Shown: positions 10,289-29,315 of the stretch, piece after piece | Layout of the letters: each line of letters starts with the position of its first letter | Numbering within the stretch: the first letter of the stretch is position 1 | Origin: a virus | IMG/VR virus record: IMGVR_UViG_3300031951_000896 | Coordinates: 1 to 29,315 of that record | Length of the DNA: 29,315 nucleotides | Reading direction: 5' to 3' (one strand) | The notes under the pieces: model-generated | Databases searched by the model: none | What the model saw: the letters and a program-made list of their open reading frames with translations, nothing else | What the model was told of the DNA's origin: nothing | Program-made: the position numbers and the translations under genes

Positions 10289-11764
10289 ATGGCAACGCAC
10301 GACTACATCATCAGCAATGCCTCTGGCGCGGCTGTCCGTGCTGACCTGAACAACGCCCTGGCGGCAATCGCCACCAACAACAGCTCCGCCACGGAGCCAA
10401 CCACAACCTACGCCTATCAGTGGTGGGCAGATACGGGCAGCTCGCCCACGGTGATGAAGCTGCGTAATGCGGCAAACAGCGGCTGGATCACCCTGTTCCA
10501 ACTGGATGGTGAGTGGACGGTTGTTCCGTTTGAGAACGGTACGGCTGCTGCCCCATCGATCTATTTCAAGGATAGCGGGACCGATACAGGTCTATTCAGC
10601 GGCGGCACTGATCAGGTCAATATTTCAACTGGCGGCACTGAGCGGGTTGAGTGGGGCACCAGTGAAGTGGTATTTAACGATGTTGGAAACAACTACGACT
10701 TCCGCGTAGAGGGTGATACAAACGCAAACCTATTTTTTGTTGATGCGTCGGCAGATCGTATAGGGATTGGCACAGCGAGCCCTAGCGTTGAACTTGACGT
10801 TCGCGGCGAAATCAAAGCTGGAAATGGGACCGTGGTTCCGATTGTTAGCTATAGCTCTACGAACACAATCTTTGGCTCCAGCAGTGGTCACCCGCTTGCT
10901 TTTGTAACTTCAAATACTGAAAGAGCGCGGCTGGATACATCGGGTCGCCTCCTAGTGGGCACGTCTTCGAGCATTGAGAGCACTTCAAAACTGCAAGTCA
11001 AAGATGGTTCGCTAAATATCTACCACGCAAGTGCTGCTGCAGGTGCTGGCTATGCCATCTTTTTCACTACCGATGGCAGCTCATCTGCTTTAGCTCAAGC
11101 AAAAATTGAAGGCTTGCAGGAAACAGCTAACACAAGTGGTGGGCGTCTTGTTTTTTCCACATCTGCGTCGGGGTCGGGTTCTCCGACGGAGCGGATGAGG
11201 ATTGCAAATGATGGGTCAATCACGTCAACCATTGCCGCCACTAATACTGCCAACAGTGTTTTTAACGCTACAAGCACTTCGTACATATCTACTCAAATAA
11301 GCATCAATAACTACACGGCAGCAGGCACGGGATTTAATTTTCTCCAATGCTGGTCGGGGAACTTTAGTTCTGAAAGATTAAAAATTATTGGCAACGGCAA
11401 CGTCCAAAACGCAAACGGCAGTTACACGACTCTTTCTGACGCCAAATTAAAAGAAAACATTGTTGATGCCAGTTCCCAATGGGATGATCTAAAAGCAATT
11501 CAAATCCGCAACTGGAACTTCAAAGAAGAGACTGGACACGAAACTCACCGTCAGATCGGTCCCATTGCTCAAGAGTTGGAGATCGTTTGCCCTGGATTGG
11601 TATTTGAAACTCCAGACCGCGATGAAGATGGCAACGAGACCGGCGAAGTTACTAAAGGAGTCAACCAGTCCGTGCTCTACATGAAGGCAGTCAAGGCGCT
11701 GCAGGAAGCAATGGAGCGCATCGAAACCCTAGAAGCCAAAGTCGCCGCCCTGGAAAGCGCGTAG
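10289..11764 (+). CDS. Tail fibre with C-terminal S74 intramolecular chaperone
   Basis: A 491-residue fibre protein. The N-terminus (MATHDYIISNASGAAVRADLN and YQWWADT) resembles attachment domains of cyanophage fibres. The middle has beta-helical repeat modules of the type G..APSI.F.DSGTDTG.FSGG.DQV.IS. A peptidase S74 chaperone domain starts near residue 383 with SDAKLKENI; Ser383 and Lys388 match the catalytic pair of this family, which trimerises the fibre and then cuts itself off before the Ser. It would release about 109 residues ending in a coiled coil (YMKAVKALQEAMERIETLEAKVAAL). The gene starts two bases after gpJ. Confidence 0.88.
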   Translation: MATHDYIISNASGAAVRADLNNALAAIATNNSSATEPTTTYAYQWWADTGSSPTVMKLRNAANSGWITLFQLDGEWTVVPFENGTAAAPSIYFKDSGTDTGLFSGGTDQVNISTGGTERVEWGTSEVVFNDVGNNYDFRVEGDTNANLFFVDASADRIGIGTASPSVELDVRGEIKAGNGTVVPIVSYSSTNTIFGSSSGHPLAFVTSNTERARLDTSGRLLVGTSSSIESTSKLQVKDGSLNIYHASAAAGAGYAIFFTTDGSSSALAQAKIEGLQETANTSGGRLVFSTSASGSGSPTERMRIANDGSITSTIAATNTANSVFNATSTSYISTQISINNYTAAGTGFNFLQCWSGNFSSERLKIIGNGNVQNANGSYTTLSDAKLKENIVDASSQWDDLKAIQIRNWNFKEETGHETHRQIGPIAQELEIVCPGLVFETPDRDEDGNETGEVTKGVNQSVLYMKAVKALQEAMERIETLEAKVAALESA

Positions 11765-21936: not shown

Positions 21937-22254
21937 TCAGAACATATCCCCGCTGTCGATTGTGACCACCACCCCATCAGTGGCGTTGGCCAGGCTCTGC
22001 GCAGCATTGCCAGGATCCACCCAGTCGCGCGGCGGTTGCCCCACTGCACTGATGTAGTTCAGGCCGGACTTGGCCTGCTTCTTCCAGCCGCTGATCGGCA
22101 CCTGGACGCTGCCGTACTGGTCCGGGGTCTGGCTCATCACAAAGCGGCAGAAAGCGTCCAGCTCCTCCACTTTGATGTTCATCATCCCGCTGAAGTCCAC
22201 CTTGCTCTCAGGTTTGGTGGACTTGAAGATGCTCAGATTCAGCTTGAAGCTCAT
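21937..22254 (-). CDS. Hypothetical protein of the recombination operon, ssDNA-binding candidate
   Basis: A 105-residue protein, last in the recE-recT operon (MSFKLNLSIFKSTKPESKVDFSGMMNIKVEELDAFCRFVMS, later VQVPISGWKKQAKSGLNYIS). The N-terminal KLNL.IFK and the strand-rich GWKK.AKSGL.Y.S phrase suggest an OB-like fold, and the C-terminus is acidic with a terminal Phe (TIDSGDMF), as in many single-strand binding proteins. With RecE/RecT neighbours an SSB role is plausible, but I did not recognise the family with certainty. The start overlaps the HTH gene stop as ATGA. Confidence 0.55.
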   Translation of the reverse strand: MSFKLNLSIFKSTKPESKVDFSGMMNIKVEELDAFCRFVMSQTPDQYGSVQVPISGWKKQAKSGLNYISAVGQPPRDWVDPGNAAQSLANATDGVVVTIDSGDMF

Positions 22255-22442
22255 TGGTCCTCGTTGGTAACGGTGTTGGCCTGTTCGTATTGCTCTACCC
22301 CGGCCAATGGGTAGAGCACGAAGCCCGGTGTCTTGAAGTACGCCGGACCTTTGCCAGCCTTTCGCCAGCGCATCAGAGTGTCCCGATGGATACCCCAGCG
22401 CTCAGCAAGCTGGCTGGCAGTTAGGTATTCAGAAGAGTTCAT
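22251..22442 (-). CDS. Excisionase/AlpA-type helix-turn-helix protein
   Basis: A 63-residue protein with the HTH_17 (MerR-like/excisionase) pattern: YLTASQLAERWGIHRDTLMRWRKAGKGP, then a wing F...P....Y and the closing helix GVEQYEQ. These small proteins act as excision factors or transcription regulators. No integrase is in the window, so regulation of the recombination genes is equally likely. The ATG at 22442 lies 14 bases inside recT. The longer in-frame start would reach further into recT and is less likely. Confidence 0.78.
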   Translation of the reverse strand: MNSSEYLTASQLAERWGIHRDTLMRWRKAGKGPAYFKTPGFVLYPLAGVEQYEQANTVTNEDQ

Positions 22443-23088
22443 CGCTCTCCGGCTCAGGTGCTGGGGCAGGCTGGGCGATCGCAGCATTGAGATCCGCCAC
22501 CGTGGCCGCAGGTGCCTCGGTCACGCTCACCGGCTCGATGTCGACCACCTCCTCTTGGCTCTGGATGCCCACCAGCAGATCGGGGACATAGAGCCGGCCG
22601 AACATCGCCGCCGCTCGATAGCGCAGCATCAGCTCCGGCATCGTCTTCCATTTTGATCCCGATTTGCTCGACCATCCTTCTGCCCGCGCCATACTCATGC
22701 TCACGGCAGGTCCGGTCACCGTCTTGCCGGTTGCTTTCTCCACCGCTGAGCACCTGCAGGCCATCTCCTCGCCTTTGCCGGCCAGCTCATACTGCAGCGG
22801 CTCAAAACGGCCGCAGCCATTGATCAGGGCAATGATGAACTGGCTGCTCCAGCTCGGTCGGCCGTGGATGATGTGCAGGTTCTGCATCACCTGGAAGGGA
22901 CTCATCCGCATCCGGTTGGCGATTTCCAGTGCGACCAGGCAGTTCGCGAATCCTTGTTGCCCTTGAAACTGTGGCGGAATGAGCGTGCTCTGCGCCAGTG
23001 CCTTCGCGATTCGCTGAGCATCCTCGAAGGCGGCGATGCCGCTGAATACTGATCCGGTGGTGGTGGTGAGTGCTGTGCTGTCTGTCAT
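22429..23088 (-). CDS. RecT-like single-strand annealing protein
   Basis: A 219-residue protein. The blocks FANCLVALEIANRM.MSPFQVMQNLHIIHGRPSWSSQF, ALINGCGRFEPL, GWSSKSGSKWKTMPELMLRYRAA.FGRLYVPDLL.G are typical of a phage protein family usually annotated as RecT or a related annealase. The last 45 residues are a Pro/Ala-rich, acidic linker ending ESDELF. It would coat and anneal ssDNA exposed by the exonuclease encoded directly upstream. The start overlaps the upstream stop by one base. The family call is by memory of motifs. Confidence 0.8.
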   Translation of the reverse strand: MTDSTALTTTTGSVFSGIAAFEDAQRIAKALAQSTLIPPQFQGQQGFANCLVALEIANRMRMSPFQVMQNLHIIHGRPSWSSQFIIALINGCGRFEPLQYELAGKGEEMACRCSAVEKATGKTVTGPAVSMSMARAEGWSSKSGSKWKTMPELMLRYRAAAMFGRLYVPDLLVGIQSQEEVVDIEPVSVTEAPAATVADLNAAIAQPAPAPEPESDELF

Positions 23089-25389: not shown

Positions 25390-25413
25390 ATGACCACCCG
25401 AACTACCGAGTGA
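25390..25413 (+). pseudogene. Seven-codon frame, possible orphaned start of the VRR-NUC gene
   Basis: ATG ACC ACC CGA ACT ACC GAG TGA encodes MTTRTTE and ends in TGATG, so its stop overlaps the start of the homing endonuclease. The VRR-NUC gene 500 bases downstream starts MNAETEIQQRI; joining TTRTTE to ETEIQQ or EIQQ gives a plausible uninterrupted N-terminus. I infer that this is the original 5' end, separated by insertion of the nuclease gene. Alternatively it is a chance short frame. Confidence 0.4.
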
Positions 25414-25919
25414 TGACTAAGGCTAACCTGTTGCCATCTTTGCAACGGATCAAAGAATTATTGCATTACGACCATGAATCAGGGTGTTTTTTTTGGAAGC
25501 AGAATAAAGGAAAATTTTTAGCAGGGTCAAAAGCTGGGACCATATGTAAGGGATACGTTGCAATAAAAATTGATTACAAGATATATGCTGCTCACAGGAT
25601 TGCTTGGTTCTTGCTGACAGGCGAAGACCCGATGAATAAGCATATAGATCATATTGACAATGACAGGTCTAACAACCGACCATGGAATCTACGGTTAGCA
25701 ACTAATAGTCAAAATATGTTCAATCAGCCTGCGCCCCAAAGCAATACGAGCGGTTTTAAGGGCGTTTCTTATAGAAAAACGCGCAGAAAGTGGATTGCGA
25801 CAATCCAGAAAGATGGAAAGCAGCATTTTTTAGGGCATTTCAATACCCCCGAACTAGCCCATATGGCCTACTGCAAGGCCGCGGCAGAATTGCATGGGGA
25901 GTTTGCCCGTGGGCAATGA
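25413..25919 (+). CDS. HNH homing endonuclease with AP2 DNA-binding domain
   Basis: A 168-residue protein. The N-terminal half has a beta-rich module (residues 15-60) leading to HRIAWFLLTGEDP, then the HNH core with HIDHIDNDRSNNRPWNLRLAT.SQN. Residues 110-165 form an AP2 domain (SGFKGVSYRKTRRKWIATI...FLGHFNTPELAHMAYCKAA). This HNH-AP2 layout is typical of free-standing phage homing nucleases. The gene is strongly AT-rich (two 60-base lines from 25501 are about 38 and 37 percent GC) against GC-rich neighbours, a sign of recent arrival. It starts at ATG 25413 overlapping a mini-frame stop, and its stop overlaps the next ATG. Confidence 0.9.
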   Translation: MTKANLLPSLQRIKELLHYDHESGCFFWKQNKGKFLAGSKAGTICKGYVAIKIDYKIYAAHRIAWFLLTGEDPMNKHIDHIDNDRSNNRPWNLRLATNSQNMFNQPAPQSNTSGFKGVSYRKTRRKWIATIQKDGKQHFLGHFNTPELAHMAYCKAAAELHGEFARGQ

Positions 25920-26263
25920 ACGCTGAGACCGAAATCCAGCAGCGCATCCGCCTAGCAGTTGGCACTCGCTCCGATCTGCGCCTGTTCCGTAATCAGGTCG
26001 GTCAACTCCCAGATCCCCGCACCGGCCGCCCCGTTCAGTTCGGCCTTGCCCGTGGCTCCGCTGATCTCATCGGTTGGCGGACCGTGGTGGTGACTCCAGA
26101 GATGGTTGGCCAGCGCCTGGCCGTATTCACCAGCATCGAAGTCAAGACACCCACAGGCCACCTCACCCCCGCACAATCCGCCTGGCTCGGCACGGTCCGT
26201 GGCGCTGGTGGCATCGCTGGCATCGCTCGCTCAGTGCGCGACGCAGAAGAAATCCTGAGATAG
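25916..26263 (+). CDS. VRR-NUC domain nuclease
   Basis: A 115-residue nuclease of the VRR-NUC type (PD-(D/E)XK superfamily). Visible features are FRNQVG near residue 25, the catalytic region FGLARGSADLIGWRTV (Asp), FTSIEVKTPTG (Glu-x-Lys), and the helix LTPAQSAWLGTVRGAGGIAGIARSV. In phages this stand-alone domain sits in replication modules next to helicases and probably resolves or trims branched DNA. The start ATG 25916 overlaps the stop of the homing endonuclease, and the encoded N-terminus (MNAETE) may be substituted for an original one now found upstream. Confidence 0.88.
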   Translation: MNAETEIQQRIRLAVGTRSDLRLFRNQVGQLPDPRTGRPVQFGLARGSADLIGWRTVVVTPEMVGQRLAVFTSIEVKTPTGHLTPAQSAWLGTVRGAGGIAGIARSVRDAEEILR

Positions 26264-26265
26264 CT

Positions 26266-26283
26266 TGCCAACCTTGCCTACCT
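26266..26283. repeat. 18-base repeat, copy 1 (before primase)
   Basis: TGCCAACCTTGCCTACCT, identical to 28096-28113. It lies between the VRR-NUC stop and the GTG start of the primase. The TTGCC.ACCT core recurs at the primase stop and downstream, so it may be a protein-binding site linked to replication or control. Confidence 0.55.
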
Positions 26284-26317
26284 CCTCCACACTCTGTCGG
26301 CTATCCGTCAGAGCCAA

Positions 26318-28348
26318 GTGGCTGCCATCGTCGATCAACTTTCATCCATCCCAGATTCATGGGCACTCGTCGCAGTCGGTAACGACAAGCGCCCCTATCA
26401 GCCTGAGTGGCAGAAGAACCCCCTCGGCAAGCGCCAAGTCGAAGCCGAACTATCAGCCGGCCGTGCCGTAGCCGTTGGCGTGCTCGCGGGTCCACCATCC
26501 GGCGGTCTCCTGTTCGTTGATCACGATGGCCTCGGTGCCTCGGAGGTGCTCCAATCGCTCGGCACATCCCTGCGCGAACTTCCCAAATCCTGGGCAGTCA
26601 CCTCCGGCCGTGATGGTCGCCTGCAGATCATTTACAAAGTCCCCGAACCCTTCTGGGATCAGATCAAGACAACCAAGCTCAAGTCCTCAGTCAAGGGCGA
26701 GCAGCTCGAACTTCGCTGGACCGGCTGCCAGTCCGTTGTTCTCGGCAAGCATCCCATCACCGGCTCCTATCGCTGGCTCAATGGACGCGCACCTGGCGAC
26801 CTGCCCATCGCTGAAGCTCCATCGGTTCTGCTTCAGCAGATGCAACGTCCGATCGAGACGCCACCACTCCTCCCATCCAACCCGACAGACGAAACCGATC
26901 GCGCTCGCACATACCTCGCCAACATCCCCGCCGCCGTCGCTGATGACTACGACGAATGGCTCAAGGTCGGCATGGCGCTCCACAGCGTCGGCAATGATTC
27001 GCTCCTCGGCGACTGGATCCAGTGGTCCACAGCATCCGGCAAGTTCAAGGCCGGCGAATGCGAGGCCAAGTGGAAGTCCTTCAAGTCCGACTCAGGCGGC
27101 GTAGGCCTCGGCACCCTGTTCCACCTCGCCGGTGGCGTTTCTCCCCGCGAGCAGGCCATCAAAGCGCTCAAGTCGGTGCTCGGTCCAGAGGTCGCACAAT
27201 CAGCCGGTGCAGCCAAACCCATCAAGCTCGAAACCGGCGAGCTGCTCACCCTCCTCCGTCAGCAACTCGGTGATCGACTCCGCTTCAACATCTACAACCA
27301 GGCCGTGGAACTTGATGGCAAGGCCGTCACCGACCTGGAGCACTACTACCTCCAGCTCGCGCAGCTGAACATCAAGGTCTCCAAGGAGCTGGCCGCTGAT
27401 GCCTTGGTGTTCGTCGCCAAGGAGAACCAGTTCGATCCCGTTCGCGAATACCTCGATCGCGTGGCTGATGAAGTGCCACCTGTGCCGATCGATCACCTCG
27501 CCACCAGTTACCTCCGCCCAGCCGATCAGCCAGGCAGCCTGTTCGACGCCATGCTCCGCTGCACCCTGATCGCAGCCGTCAGGCGCATCTATGAACCAGG
27601 TGCCAAGCACGATGCTGCCTGCGTGCTCATGGGACCACAGGGATGCGGCAAGTCCACCTTCTGGCGCAACCTCGGCGGTCCGTTCTTCTCCGATGCCCTA
27701 GGCGACATCAACAACAAGGACGACCTGCTCCTGGTCGGTAAGGCCTGGATCCACGAGTGGGGCGAGATCGATCGCATCACCGGCAAGAACCACGCCGGCA
27801 AGATCAAGGCCTTCCTTTCCCGCCAGACCGACTCCTATCGCGTGCCCTATGGCAAGGCTATGGAGGACTTCCCCAGGCGCTCGATCATCGTCGGCTCCAC
27901 CAACCGCGACACCGGCTTCCTGATCGATGACACCGGCAACCGTCGCTTCTGGGTCATCCCCGTGGACGTGAAGACCATGATCGAGGTGGATGGCCTGCTG
28001 CTCGAACGCGATGCCATCTGGTCAGCAGCAGTGGCTGCCTATCGCGCTGGAGAGGCGAACCACCTGCCGCGTGAGCAGGAGCAGCAGGTCTCAGATGCCA
28101 ACCTTGCCTACCTGGTGGAATCTCCTTGGCTTGCTCCAGTGCGCGAATGGCTTGCATCGCCTCGAAACGCTGGGATCCCAGTCACCACCGAAGGTTTGCT
28201 CACTGATGCCATCGGTAAGCCTGTCGAGCGCCAGTCTCGTGCGGATCAAATGCAGATCGCGTCCATCTTGAGAGAGCTGGGACTCATAAAGAGACGCCGT
28301 TTGGTCGGAACGGTCCAGAAGTGGGTTTATTGCCAACCTCACGATTGA
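26318..28348 (+). CDS. Primase-polymerase with SF3/VirE-type ATPase
   Basis: A 676-residue replication protein. Residues 10-175 resemble the bifunctional AEP primase/polymerase N-terminal domain, with acidic VDHD at 67-70 and TSGRDGRLQIIY as the second motif. Residues 195-260 match PriCT-2 (RTYLANIPA..ADDYDEWLKVGMALHSVG...W..WS). Residues 420-560 form a VirE-like P-loop ATPase: GPQGCGKST at 439-447, acidic HEWGEID at 479-485, IVGSTNR sensor, then DDTGNRRFWVIPV. It probably primes and unwinds phage DNA. GTG 26318 is the start, with no strong ribosome site. The stop is inside a 12-bp inverted repeat. Confidence 0.88.
   Translation: MAAIVDQLSSIPDSWALVAVGNDKRPYQPEWQKNPLGKRQVEAELSAGRAVAVGVLAGPPSGGLLFVDHDGLGASEVLQSLGTSLRELPKSWAVTSGRDGRLQIIYKVPEPFWDQIKTTKLKSSVKGEQLELRWTGCQSVVLGKHPITGSYRWLNGRAPGDLPIAEAPSVLLQQMQRPIETPPLLPSNPTDETDRARTYLANIPAAVADDYDEWLKVGMALHSVGNDSLLGDWIQWSTASGKFKAGECEAKWKSFKSDSGGVGLGTLFHLAGGVSPREQAIKALKSVLGPEVAQSAGAAKPIKLETGELLTLLRQQLGDRLRFNIYNQAVELDGKAVTDLEHYYLQLAQLNIKVSKELAADALVFVAKENQFDPVREYLDRVADEVPPVPIDHLATSYLRPADQPGSLFDAMLRCTLIAAVRRIYEPGAKHDAACVLMGPQGCGKSTFWRNLGGPFFSDALGDINNKDDLLLVGKAWIHEWGEIDRITGKNHAGKIKAFLSRQTDSYRVPYGKAMEDFPRRSIIVGSTNRDTGFLIDDTGNRRFWVIPVDVKTMIEVDGLLLERDAIWSAAVAAYRAGEANHLPREQEQQVSDANLAYLVESPWLAPVREWLASPRNAGIPVTTEGLLTDAIGKPVERQSRADQMQIASILRELGLIKRRRLVGTVQKWVYCQPHD
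28096..28113. repeat. 18-base repeat, copy 2 (inside primase)
   Basis: An exact copy of the 18 bases at 26266-26283, here within the primase coding sequence where it encodes part of ANLAYL. Being coding, it may be coincidence of sequence pressure, but an exact 18-mer 1.8 kb away, sharing a core with three further motifs nearby, is unlikely by chance. Confidence 0.5.
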
Positions 28349-28357
28349 GGTAGGCAA
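28330..28357. repeat. 12-bp inverted repeat over the primase stop codon
   Basis: TTGCCAACCTCA (28330-28341) and TGAGGTAGGCAA (28346-28357) pair with one mismatch around a CGAT loop. The primase stop is at 28346-28348. There is no U tract, so it is a weak terminator at best; the sequence carries the same TTGCC(A/T)ACCT core as the other repeats. Confidence 0.6.
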
Positions 28358-28478
28358 CCCGAGATCCATTGCAGCCAGTGGCTTCTTCTACCCTTTCCTA
28401 CCTTCCTACCTTCTAAAAAGAGTAAAATAAATAGAGAGGAGAGGAGGGGAGGGGGAGAAAAACCCTTATATAGGAAAC

Positions 28479-28495
28479 GGTAGGCATTGCCTACC
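28479..28495. repeat. 17-base palindrome GGTAGGCA-T-TGCCTACC
   Basis: Perfect eight-base arms around one central base. Each arm is the core of the repeats at 26266, 28096 and 28330, now in inverted orientation, so this looks like a full dimer site where the others are half or direct sites. Confidence 0.65.
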
Positions 28496-28521
28496 TAGGT
28501 TGGAATCGGCGCCCATCGCAT

Positions 28522-28552
28522 GGCCGTCTCACTTGAGACGCTTGAGACGGCC
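28522..28552. repeat. 10-bp inverted repeat with two tandem CTTGAGACG units
   Basis: GGCCGTCTCA (28522-28531) pairs with TGAGACGGCC (28543-28552). The centre contains CTTGAGACG twice in tandem (28532-28540 and 28541-28549), so two alternative stems can form: GTCTCA with the first or with the second TGAGAC. A frame ATG...TGA at 28520-28555 (MAVSLETLETA) runs through it. No U tract follows. It lies 27 bases before the next gene, suggesting control of its expression. Confidence 0.6.
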
Positions 28553-28582
28553 TGAGGCTGGCGATCCGCCTACCCTTGGGAC

Positions 28583-29251
28583 ATGACCACCCTGCGCCTG
28601 GATATCAAGTCGGAGCTGCCCACCGCCATCCGGTGGACCGACACCATGACGAAGCAGCTTCCGTTCGCCATCAGCCAGGCCTTGAACAAGACCGCCTTCG
28701 ATATGCGGGAGGCGATGAACGGCGCCACCCGCCAGTACTTCAAGAACCCGGTGCCCTTCACCCAGCGGGCATTCCTGGTCAACAGGTCCAGCAAGCGCGA
28801 CCTGACCGCTGAGGTGTACGCCGAGCGTCGCCGGGCTCGATACCTGCGCACGCTGATCACTGGTGGTGATCGCGGGCAGAAGCCGGTGGAGCTGCGCTAC
28901 CTGGCCAAGGCTGAGGCGACCATGCCGAGGGGCTCTGTGCTGGTCCCTGCAGCGATCAACCTCACGGCCGCTGGCAACGTCTCCCTGGCCACGCTGAAGC
29001 GCATCGAGAGCCAGATAGCTACCAAGGGGCGCAACAGCGTCTTCCTTGGGCGTCCAGACGGTGCTGGCAGGCCTCCTGGTGTGTACCAGCGCACGGCTAA
29101 GGGCAAACTGCGTCCGCTGATGATCGCGGTGCCACGCGCCCGCTACGGCAAGATGTTCCCCATGGAGGAGATCGGGCAGAAGGTGATCACCCGACGCTTC
29201 GGTGATTATTTGCGCAGCTCGCTGGAGCGTGCGGTGGCTACTGCCCGATAG
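28583..29251 (+). CDS. Phage structural protein, gpZ-like tail/head completion candidate
   Basis: A 222-residue basic protein. The N-terminal QLPFAISQALNKTAFDMREAMN, the middle ARYLRTLITGGDRGQKPVE, the PRGSVLVPAAINLTAAGNV block, and the C-terminal LRPLMIAVPRARYGKMFPMEEIGQKVITRRFGDYLRSSLERAV match a widespread phage family often compared with lambda minor tail protein Z. I recognise the pattern but not a proven function. It is unusual in lying directly behind the replication module and not near the tail genes visible here. The ATG at 28583 has no strong ribosome site. Confidence 0.6.
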   Translation: MTTLRLDIKSELPTAIRWTDTMTKQLPFAISQALNKTAFDMREAMNGATRQYFKNPVPFTQRAFLVNRSSKRDLTAEVYAERRRARYLRTLITGGDRGQKPVELRYLAKAEATMPRGSVLVPAAINLTAAGNVSLATLKRIESQIATKGRNSVFLGRPDGAGRPPGVYQRTAKGKLRPLMIAVPRARYGKMFPMEEIGQKVITRRFGDYLRSSLERAVATAR

Positions 29252-29274: not shown

Positions 29275-29315
29275 ATGGGTCCTTCTGGGGGCGTTTATCG
29301 CGGGTCGTCCAAACG
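29275..29315 (+). CDS. Partial frame at the window edge
   Basis: ATG 29275 opens a frame (MGPSGGVYRGSSK) that runs off the window. An alternative is GTG 29265 in another frame (MPFNGSFWGRL), also open to the edge. Either could be the start of a packaging or head gene, given the structural gene before it, but the fragment is too short to identify. Confidence 0.25.
   Translation, partial: MGPSGGVYRGSSK

Follow-up and report, generated by a model that had tools for sequence, protein, structure and literature searches.

The segment at 28330–28505 of this tailed phage genome is probably its replication origin, an iteron origin of the SaPI/PICI type that lies 3′ of the initiator gene and whose repeats are predicted to be bound by a winged helix at the C terminus of the primase. 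The window, meaning the whole stretch of DNA that was analysed, corresponds to one linear virus record of IMG/VR, 29,315 bases long. Its primase has Pfam matches to Prim-Pol (5e-17), PriCT_2 (7e-23) and a VapE-like helicase (2e-63), and the helicase core matches PDB entry 7pds, ‘Similar to D. nodosus vapE’, with E values of 2.4e-24 for the single sequence and 7.6e-37 with the family profile. We take 7pds to be the primase-Rep of a staphylococcal island (SaPI-type). The gene 3′ of the primase, starting at 28583, encodes a minor tail protein, and the record also carries tail tube, tape measure and other tail genes, an endolysin and recombination genes; in relatives, a terminase-side head module was assigned from gene order. 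No polymerase able to extend primers was seen in the window. Among named phages, Synechococcus phage S-LBS1 (MG271909) is the nearest, with a primase identity of 47%. Between the helicase and VRR-NUC genes, an HNH endonuclease with an AP2 domain (25410–25919), absent from the ten long relatives tested and from S-LBS1, is probably a homing endonuclease insertion. The elements of the region are as follows.

26266–26283, plus strand: 5′ iteron pair TGCCAACCT+TGCCTACCT, about 50 bp upstream of the primase start.
26318–28348, plus strand: primase/VapE-type helicase gene, 676 amino acids, with Prim-Pol, PriCT_2, VapE-like helicase and (predicted) C-terminal winged-helix domains.
28088–28345, plus strand: predicted iteron-reading winged-helix domain, primase residues 591–676, from co-variation and AlphaFold2.
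28096–28113, plus strand: second exact copy of the 18-mer, within the primase gene, encoding ANLAY.
28330–28357, no strand: inverted iteron pair (hairpin) over the primase stop, conserved in position in most lineages, with a sequence that is specific to the lineage.
28386–28411, plus strand: left array TTCTACCCT, TTCCTACCT, TTCCTACCT, direct repeats with an 8–9-bp period seen in the sequence.
28411–28433, no strand: AT-rich segment, a candidate melting element, from the AT profile over 24 lineages.
28433–28462, plus strand: 30-base polypurine tract, from the purine profile over 24 lineages.
28478–28505, minus strand: right array CGGTAGGCA(−), TGCCTACCT(+), AGGTTGGAA(−), mostly inverted relative to the left array.
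28567–28575, plus strand: iteron-like CGCCTACCC before the minor tail gene, present as (C)CTACCCTTGG-ATG or TTACCCTTGG-ATG in most relatives.

Iterons of 8–9 bp occupy the gap after the primase gene (28349–28582), and the hairpin covers the stop codon. The original prediction, which had proposed a candidate origin from the letters of the window, described most of these repeats accurately: TGCCAACCTTGCCTACCT occurs exactly at 26266–26283 and 28096–28113, as claimed; the 12-bp hairpin at the primase stop has arms at 28330–28341 and 28346–28357, with one A·A mismatch and a CGAT loop, and the TGA stop (28346–28348) falls inside it; the tandem units at 28395–28410 are two copies of TTCCTACC (28395–28402 and 28403–28410); and the 17-base palindrome at 28479–28495 reads GGTAGGCA-T-TGCCTACC, with perfect 8-bp arms around one central base. 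The GCCTACC placed at 28569 is present one base away, at 28568–28574, and the AT-rich segment and 30-base polypurine tract are found at about 28411–28433 and at 28433–28462. Two iteron copies had been overlooked, the inverted AGGTTGGAA at 28497–28505 and the degenerate TTCTACCCT at 28386–28394. GCCTACC occurs 8 times in the window against 2.2 expected, a number reached in 0 of 100 shuffles, and an in-sample profile of the sites gives 11 matches in 29.3 kb, of which the origin region accounts for 7 and the 26266 pair and the 28096 copy for 2 each.

The 28096 copy, which had been counted among the origin repeats, was dropped. It is not a conserved part, because it codes for ANLAY, is not found outside the window’s clade and lies where synonymous variation is not reduced; it is probably a coding coincidence or clade-specific. 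The iteron-like CGCCTACCC at 28567–28575 may belong instead to the leader of the tail gene. Just 5′ of that gene, the stretch 28522–28552 holds a perfect 9-bp inverted repeat, GGCCGTCTC/GAGACGGCC, with CTTGAGACG repeated; GTCTCA/TGAGAC repeats recur there only within the window’s clade.

The layout is conserved among relatives. Primase relatives were drawn from 78 IMG/VR loci, with 25 loci examined site by site and 24 representative lineages used for lineage statistics. Reading 3′ from the primase stop, most relatives have the same order: inverted pair over the stop, direct array, AT-rich segment, purine-rich segment, mostly inverted array and tail gene, with the iteron cluster spanning the stop codon to about +160 bp in most lineages. 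The left direct set spans +37 to +63 after the stop, with the counterpart of the left array at +37 to +57 in nearly all lineages, and the right set comprises two or three inverted copies at +108 to +168 in relatives and four in S-LBS1. Over the 24 lineages, mean AT content is 0.73–0.74 at +60 to +85, against about 0.4 in the flanks, and mean purine content is 0.84–0.86 at +80 to +105. A tandem pair sits 50–73 bp 5′ of the primase start (99 bp in lineage L048) in 20 of the 24 lineages, and is absent in the other 4. The repeat score 3′ of the primase exceeds that of every shuffle in most, not all, of the 25 loci. When long records were scanned, each with a profile of its own, all had their densest iteron cluster in the origin region, with 5–8 matches where 0.01–0.08 are expected per 250 bp. 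In clade C, synonymous variation in the primase gene is minimal at the 3′ end. When two exact array patterns were searched against 2.9 million viral contigs, 18 of 18 and 11 of 15 matches adjoined this primase family. Contigs L104, L109, L113 and L114, considered as satellites with the array pattern and no detected primase, proved on inspection to be single chance or low-complexity matches.

The same layout occurs in a Cyanobium relative with 45% primase identity; locus L071 (53%) is without it. S-LBS1, which matches the window in gene neighbourhood and origin anatomy, carries the layout at 34239–34530, as three direct CCTAACCTA units, an AT-rich stretch, purines and four AGGTTGGGC units, and no 5′ iteron pair is recognisable in the stretch examined. 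It differs from the window in its primase and in its iteron, GCC[CT]AACC, and in the duplication of an origin-side segment of about 110 bp, seen at 34275–34385 and again at 34530–34641, the last bases of the record, which is possibly an assembly overlap or a terminal repeat.

Iteron types differ by lineage (TGCC[AT]ACCT, TCC[CT]AACCT, GCC[CT][CT]ACCT and a GTTCC type), and the copies agree within one genome. The 5′ pair fits the 3′ arrays of its own genome better than those of others, a fit reached in 0 of 10,000 permutations across 20 lineages (p < 1e-4), as against p = 0.85 for an equally long control flank. In permutation tests covering 20–24 lineages, with no explicit phylogenetic model, divergence of primase residues 591–676 tracks divergence of the iteron profiles once the rest of the protein is accounted for (partial Mantel rho 0.80, p = 0.001), and the signal persists when clade B, clade B plus L043, or clade A is left out. 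Elsewhere in the primase a weak signal appears for residues 1–90 only (0.20, p = 0.02), and none of the remaining PriCT or helicase segments tracks the iterons; nor do the following gene and the 5′ pair’s own flank. Iteron profiles were extracted by a generic motif, so that divergent iterons, such as those of L042, were left out. At the level of sequence, this co-variation shows a coupling of the iterons with the C terminus, not the job done at the site.

The C-terminal domain is predicted to be a winged helix. AlphaFold2 modelled residues 585–676 as helix–helix–helix–strand–strand, with a mean pLDDT of 86.7 and about 92–97 in the core; the whole-protein model, of low confidence (64.9), served only for the secondary structure of the C terminus. 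As a PDB fold search with the domain gave nothing at E ≤ 0.001, we assign it no named relative. Clade B, L043 and S-LBS1, the three lineages whose iterons have C at position 2, carry Arg667 in the wing, and 0 of 19 others compared do. The pairing of Arg667 with this C is a first candidate, picked post hoc and unadjusted for relatedness. Lineages L032 and L042 read as a natural swap of the C-terminal domain together with the iterons: they are 98% identical in Prim-Pol, 94% in PriCT and 99% in the helicase, but 64% in the C-terminal domain, and their iterons are TTCCTACC and the GTTCC type, respectively.

Other explanations of the repeats were weighed against the origin. The one that survives best, although we consider it unlikely, is that the repeats are operators only, through which the primase C-terminal domain or another regulator controls the primase and the following late genes, while replication starts elsewhere. 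Such a role would fit the iteron pair that precedes the primase start by about 50 bp and the cluster between the primase gene and its downstream neighbour, and autorepression by initiators is common; yet six to eight copies in two opposed sets, with an AT-rich core, directly 3′ of the initiator gene, exceed what an operator needs. The array layout also matches the published plan of PICI origins (PMC6092414), and no sigma-70-type promoter was found at 26150–28700, with the proviso that cyanophage promoters may differ.

A good deal less probable is recognition of the repeats by some other DNA-binding protein of the phage. One such candidate, encoded at 22251–22487, has an HTH_17 domain and homologues in most long relatives. 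This protein was rejected on its distribution and absence of tracking: it was not detected in S-LBS1, where the iterons are clear, its identity is 84% in G006, which has other iterons, and 77% in G001, which has the same iteron type, and the iterons track the primase C terminus instead.

We give very little credence to the idea that the co-variation arises as a side effect of recombination in which the 3′ end of the primase gene and the repeats beside it travel together as a unit. Linkage is a confounder, because residues 591–676 are encoded beside the 3′ arrays, and the differences between L032 and L042 do form a single block that begins with the C-terminal domain and extends across the next gene. 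However, the 5′ pair, 2 kb away beside the conserved N terminus, by itself follows the primase C terminus (rho 0.76, p = 0.001) and not Prim-Pol (−0.22); linkage therefore does not explain the co-variation. Nor does the spacer DNA of the same intergenic region track the iterons (rho 0.16–0.17, p about 0.09). In the alignment of L032 (5800–7000) with L042, the low-identity block is sharply bounded, taking in the primase C terminus, the origin and the minor tail gene, and the flanks are about 90% or more identical on both sides, the pattern of a modular exchange.

Just as improbable is that the repeats are packaging elements (cosB-like) of a nearby cohesive-end site: conserved contig ends, very probably cos, do lie about 0.9–1.9 kb to the right, but the distance to them varies with what lies between, a tail gene and in some cases also an HNH gene; 3 kb separate one iteron pair from cos, and the motif tracks the primase C terminus.

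The contig ends are of interest in their own right. Twenty-eight contigs, the window’s included (29303–29315), end within a couple of bases of one conserved motif, which lies about 0.9–1.9 kb after the primase and is internal in 12 other contigs. The same 13 bases stand at both ends of G003 (L070) and of G005 (L035), GGTCGTTCGTTCG and GGTCGTCCAAGCG. These shared ends look like 13-base cohesive ends (cos), in contrast to the headful packaging reported in the S-LBS1 paper.

The reading as an initiator-dependent iteron origin, the core of the original prediction, gained from the conserved anatomy, the concerted change of the iterons and their co-variation only with the C-terminal domain, and gave up the 28096 copy as a member. 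In the GC-skew check proposed with it, the cumulative minimum falls 0.4–2.8 kb to the right of the site in the ten longest records, but third-position skew flips nearer cos and the terminase gene than the repeats. The gene immediately to the right of the repeats keeps a negative third-position skew, the change of sign coming only in the terminase region, so that GC skew is not used here as proof of the origin.

The closest known systems are the SaPI/PICI origins, which lie 3′ of rep, with two iteron sets flanking an AT-rich region and a Rep C terminus that reads them (PMC6092414, PMC7581432). As in SaPI5 Rep and its relatives, the origin here would stand directly 3′ of the initiator gene, with two iteron sets around an AT-rich region, and a primase is fused to a VapE/Rep-type helicase whose core is homologous to 7pds; reading of the iterons by the C-terminal domain is here predicted from co-variation and the winged-helix model. 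Unlike these islands, the element is no satellite but a complete tailed phage, equipped with tail, lysis and recombination genes of its own, and it has in addition a conserved 5′ iteron pair, an iteron hairpin over the stop codon and a conserved polypurine tract. Its own virion genes make it a phage and not a PICI: the tail tube, tape measure, other tail genes and endolysin rule out a helper-dependent satellite without structural genes.

Phage P4, with its alpha protein, ori and crr, similarly combines primase, helicase and C-terminal winged helix in one polypeptide and has octamer-like repeats at two separated sites, here the 5′ pair and the 3′ cluster (see also PMC4234260). However, the P4 primase is of the TOPRIM type, as opposed to the archaeo-eukaryotic Prim-Pol here, and P4 requires both iteron sites for replication; in the window the second site, which precedes the gene by 50 bp, is only a candidate replication element. 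ORF904 of plasmid pRN1 (PMC4234260) likewise joins a Prim-Pol, a helicase and a C-terminal winged helix, with its origin in noncoding DNA just downstream, but that origin is a 100-nt stem-loop without iterons. A pRN1-type origin was rejected for the window, where short iterons are present and the only hairpin has 12-base arms and a 4-base loop. In PLE RepA and its origin (PMC8263062), iterons and the initiator’s DNA-binding domain also co-vary and are swapped as a module; that initiator is an unrelated protein of the RepA_N type, with iterons of about 30 bp and an N-terminal DNA-binding domain. A DnaA-dependent origin was also rejected: as had been claimed, there are no DnaA boxes nearby and no DnaA-box cluster, and the single TTWTNCACA in the window, at 11153, compares with 1.05 expected by chance.

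The computed evidence consists of the repeats, their conserved anatomy, concerted change and co-variation, the C-terminal fold and the homology of the helicase to SaPI-type Rep. For the working of the origin, we infer iteron binding, melting, helicase loading, initiation and autoregulation, with loading, melting and autoregulation modelled on the families named above; precedent for the mechanism is published (PMC6092414, PMC7581432). The primase-helicase would bind the 8–9-bp iterons through its C-terminal winged helix (residues about 591–676), and initiator molecules would gather on the left array and the oppositely oriented right array. The AT-rich segment between the arrays would then melt, and two helicase rings would load and travel apart. 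The N-terminal Prim-Pol domain would make primers, to be extended by another polymerase. The same C-terminal domain would probably bind the 26266 pair as well, whether to repress the primase gene or, in the manner of P4 crr, at a second element for replication; an operator for self-regulation or a second origin element is thus its probable role.

Similar clusters appear beyond the immediate family. In a survey of distant VapE-type genes, nearly all at 31–45% identity and mostly in bacterial genomes, with two named phages, a short-repeat cluster that exceeded all 20 shuffles lay within 280 bp 3′ of the gene in 41 of 76 loci, as against 4 of 71 control windows 900 bp further on; this excess is a lead only, because the controls were unmatched as to intergenic position and the loci are not independent of one another. 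The motifs vary widely, for example CTGGTCCT, GGTAACGA and TTGTCCCA. Dense and quite different short repeats stand directly 3′ of VapE-type genes in L135 (after 3676), L136 (after 3591), L143 (after 3035) and L139 (after 5223), a set made up of Acutalibacter phage Fontainebleau, Corynebacterium phage SamW and Cyanobium contigs, and are candidate origins.

It is possible, if on balance somewhat doubtful, that the C-terminal winged helix and its iterons form a swappable, selected specificity cassette and that origins with short iterons 3′ of VapE-type helicases make up a general class in phages, one that mostly goes unannotated. Swapping of such a cassette could provide, for example, escape from origin-directed nucleases, from origin-parasitising satellites or from incompatibility with co-infecting relatives. 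In the passages searched, the S-LBS1 paper names no origin, and our literature search turned up no cyanophage iteron origin; the site described here offers a concrete candidate origin and initiator for the widespread, uncultured S-LBS1-like siphoviruses. The PICI origin layout has been stated to occur in no other known bacterial replicon (PMC6092414), and the present reading would mean that complete phages use it as well. Given the clusters 3′ of distant VapE-type genes, the same rule may predict origins in many phages and prophages, and the co-variation of iterons with the primase C terminus would serve as a naturally occurring code with which to study changes in the target sites of initiators.
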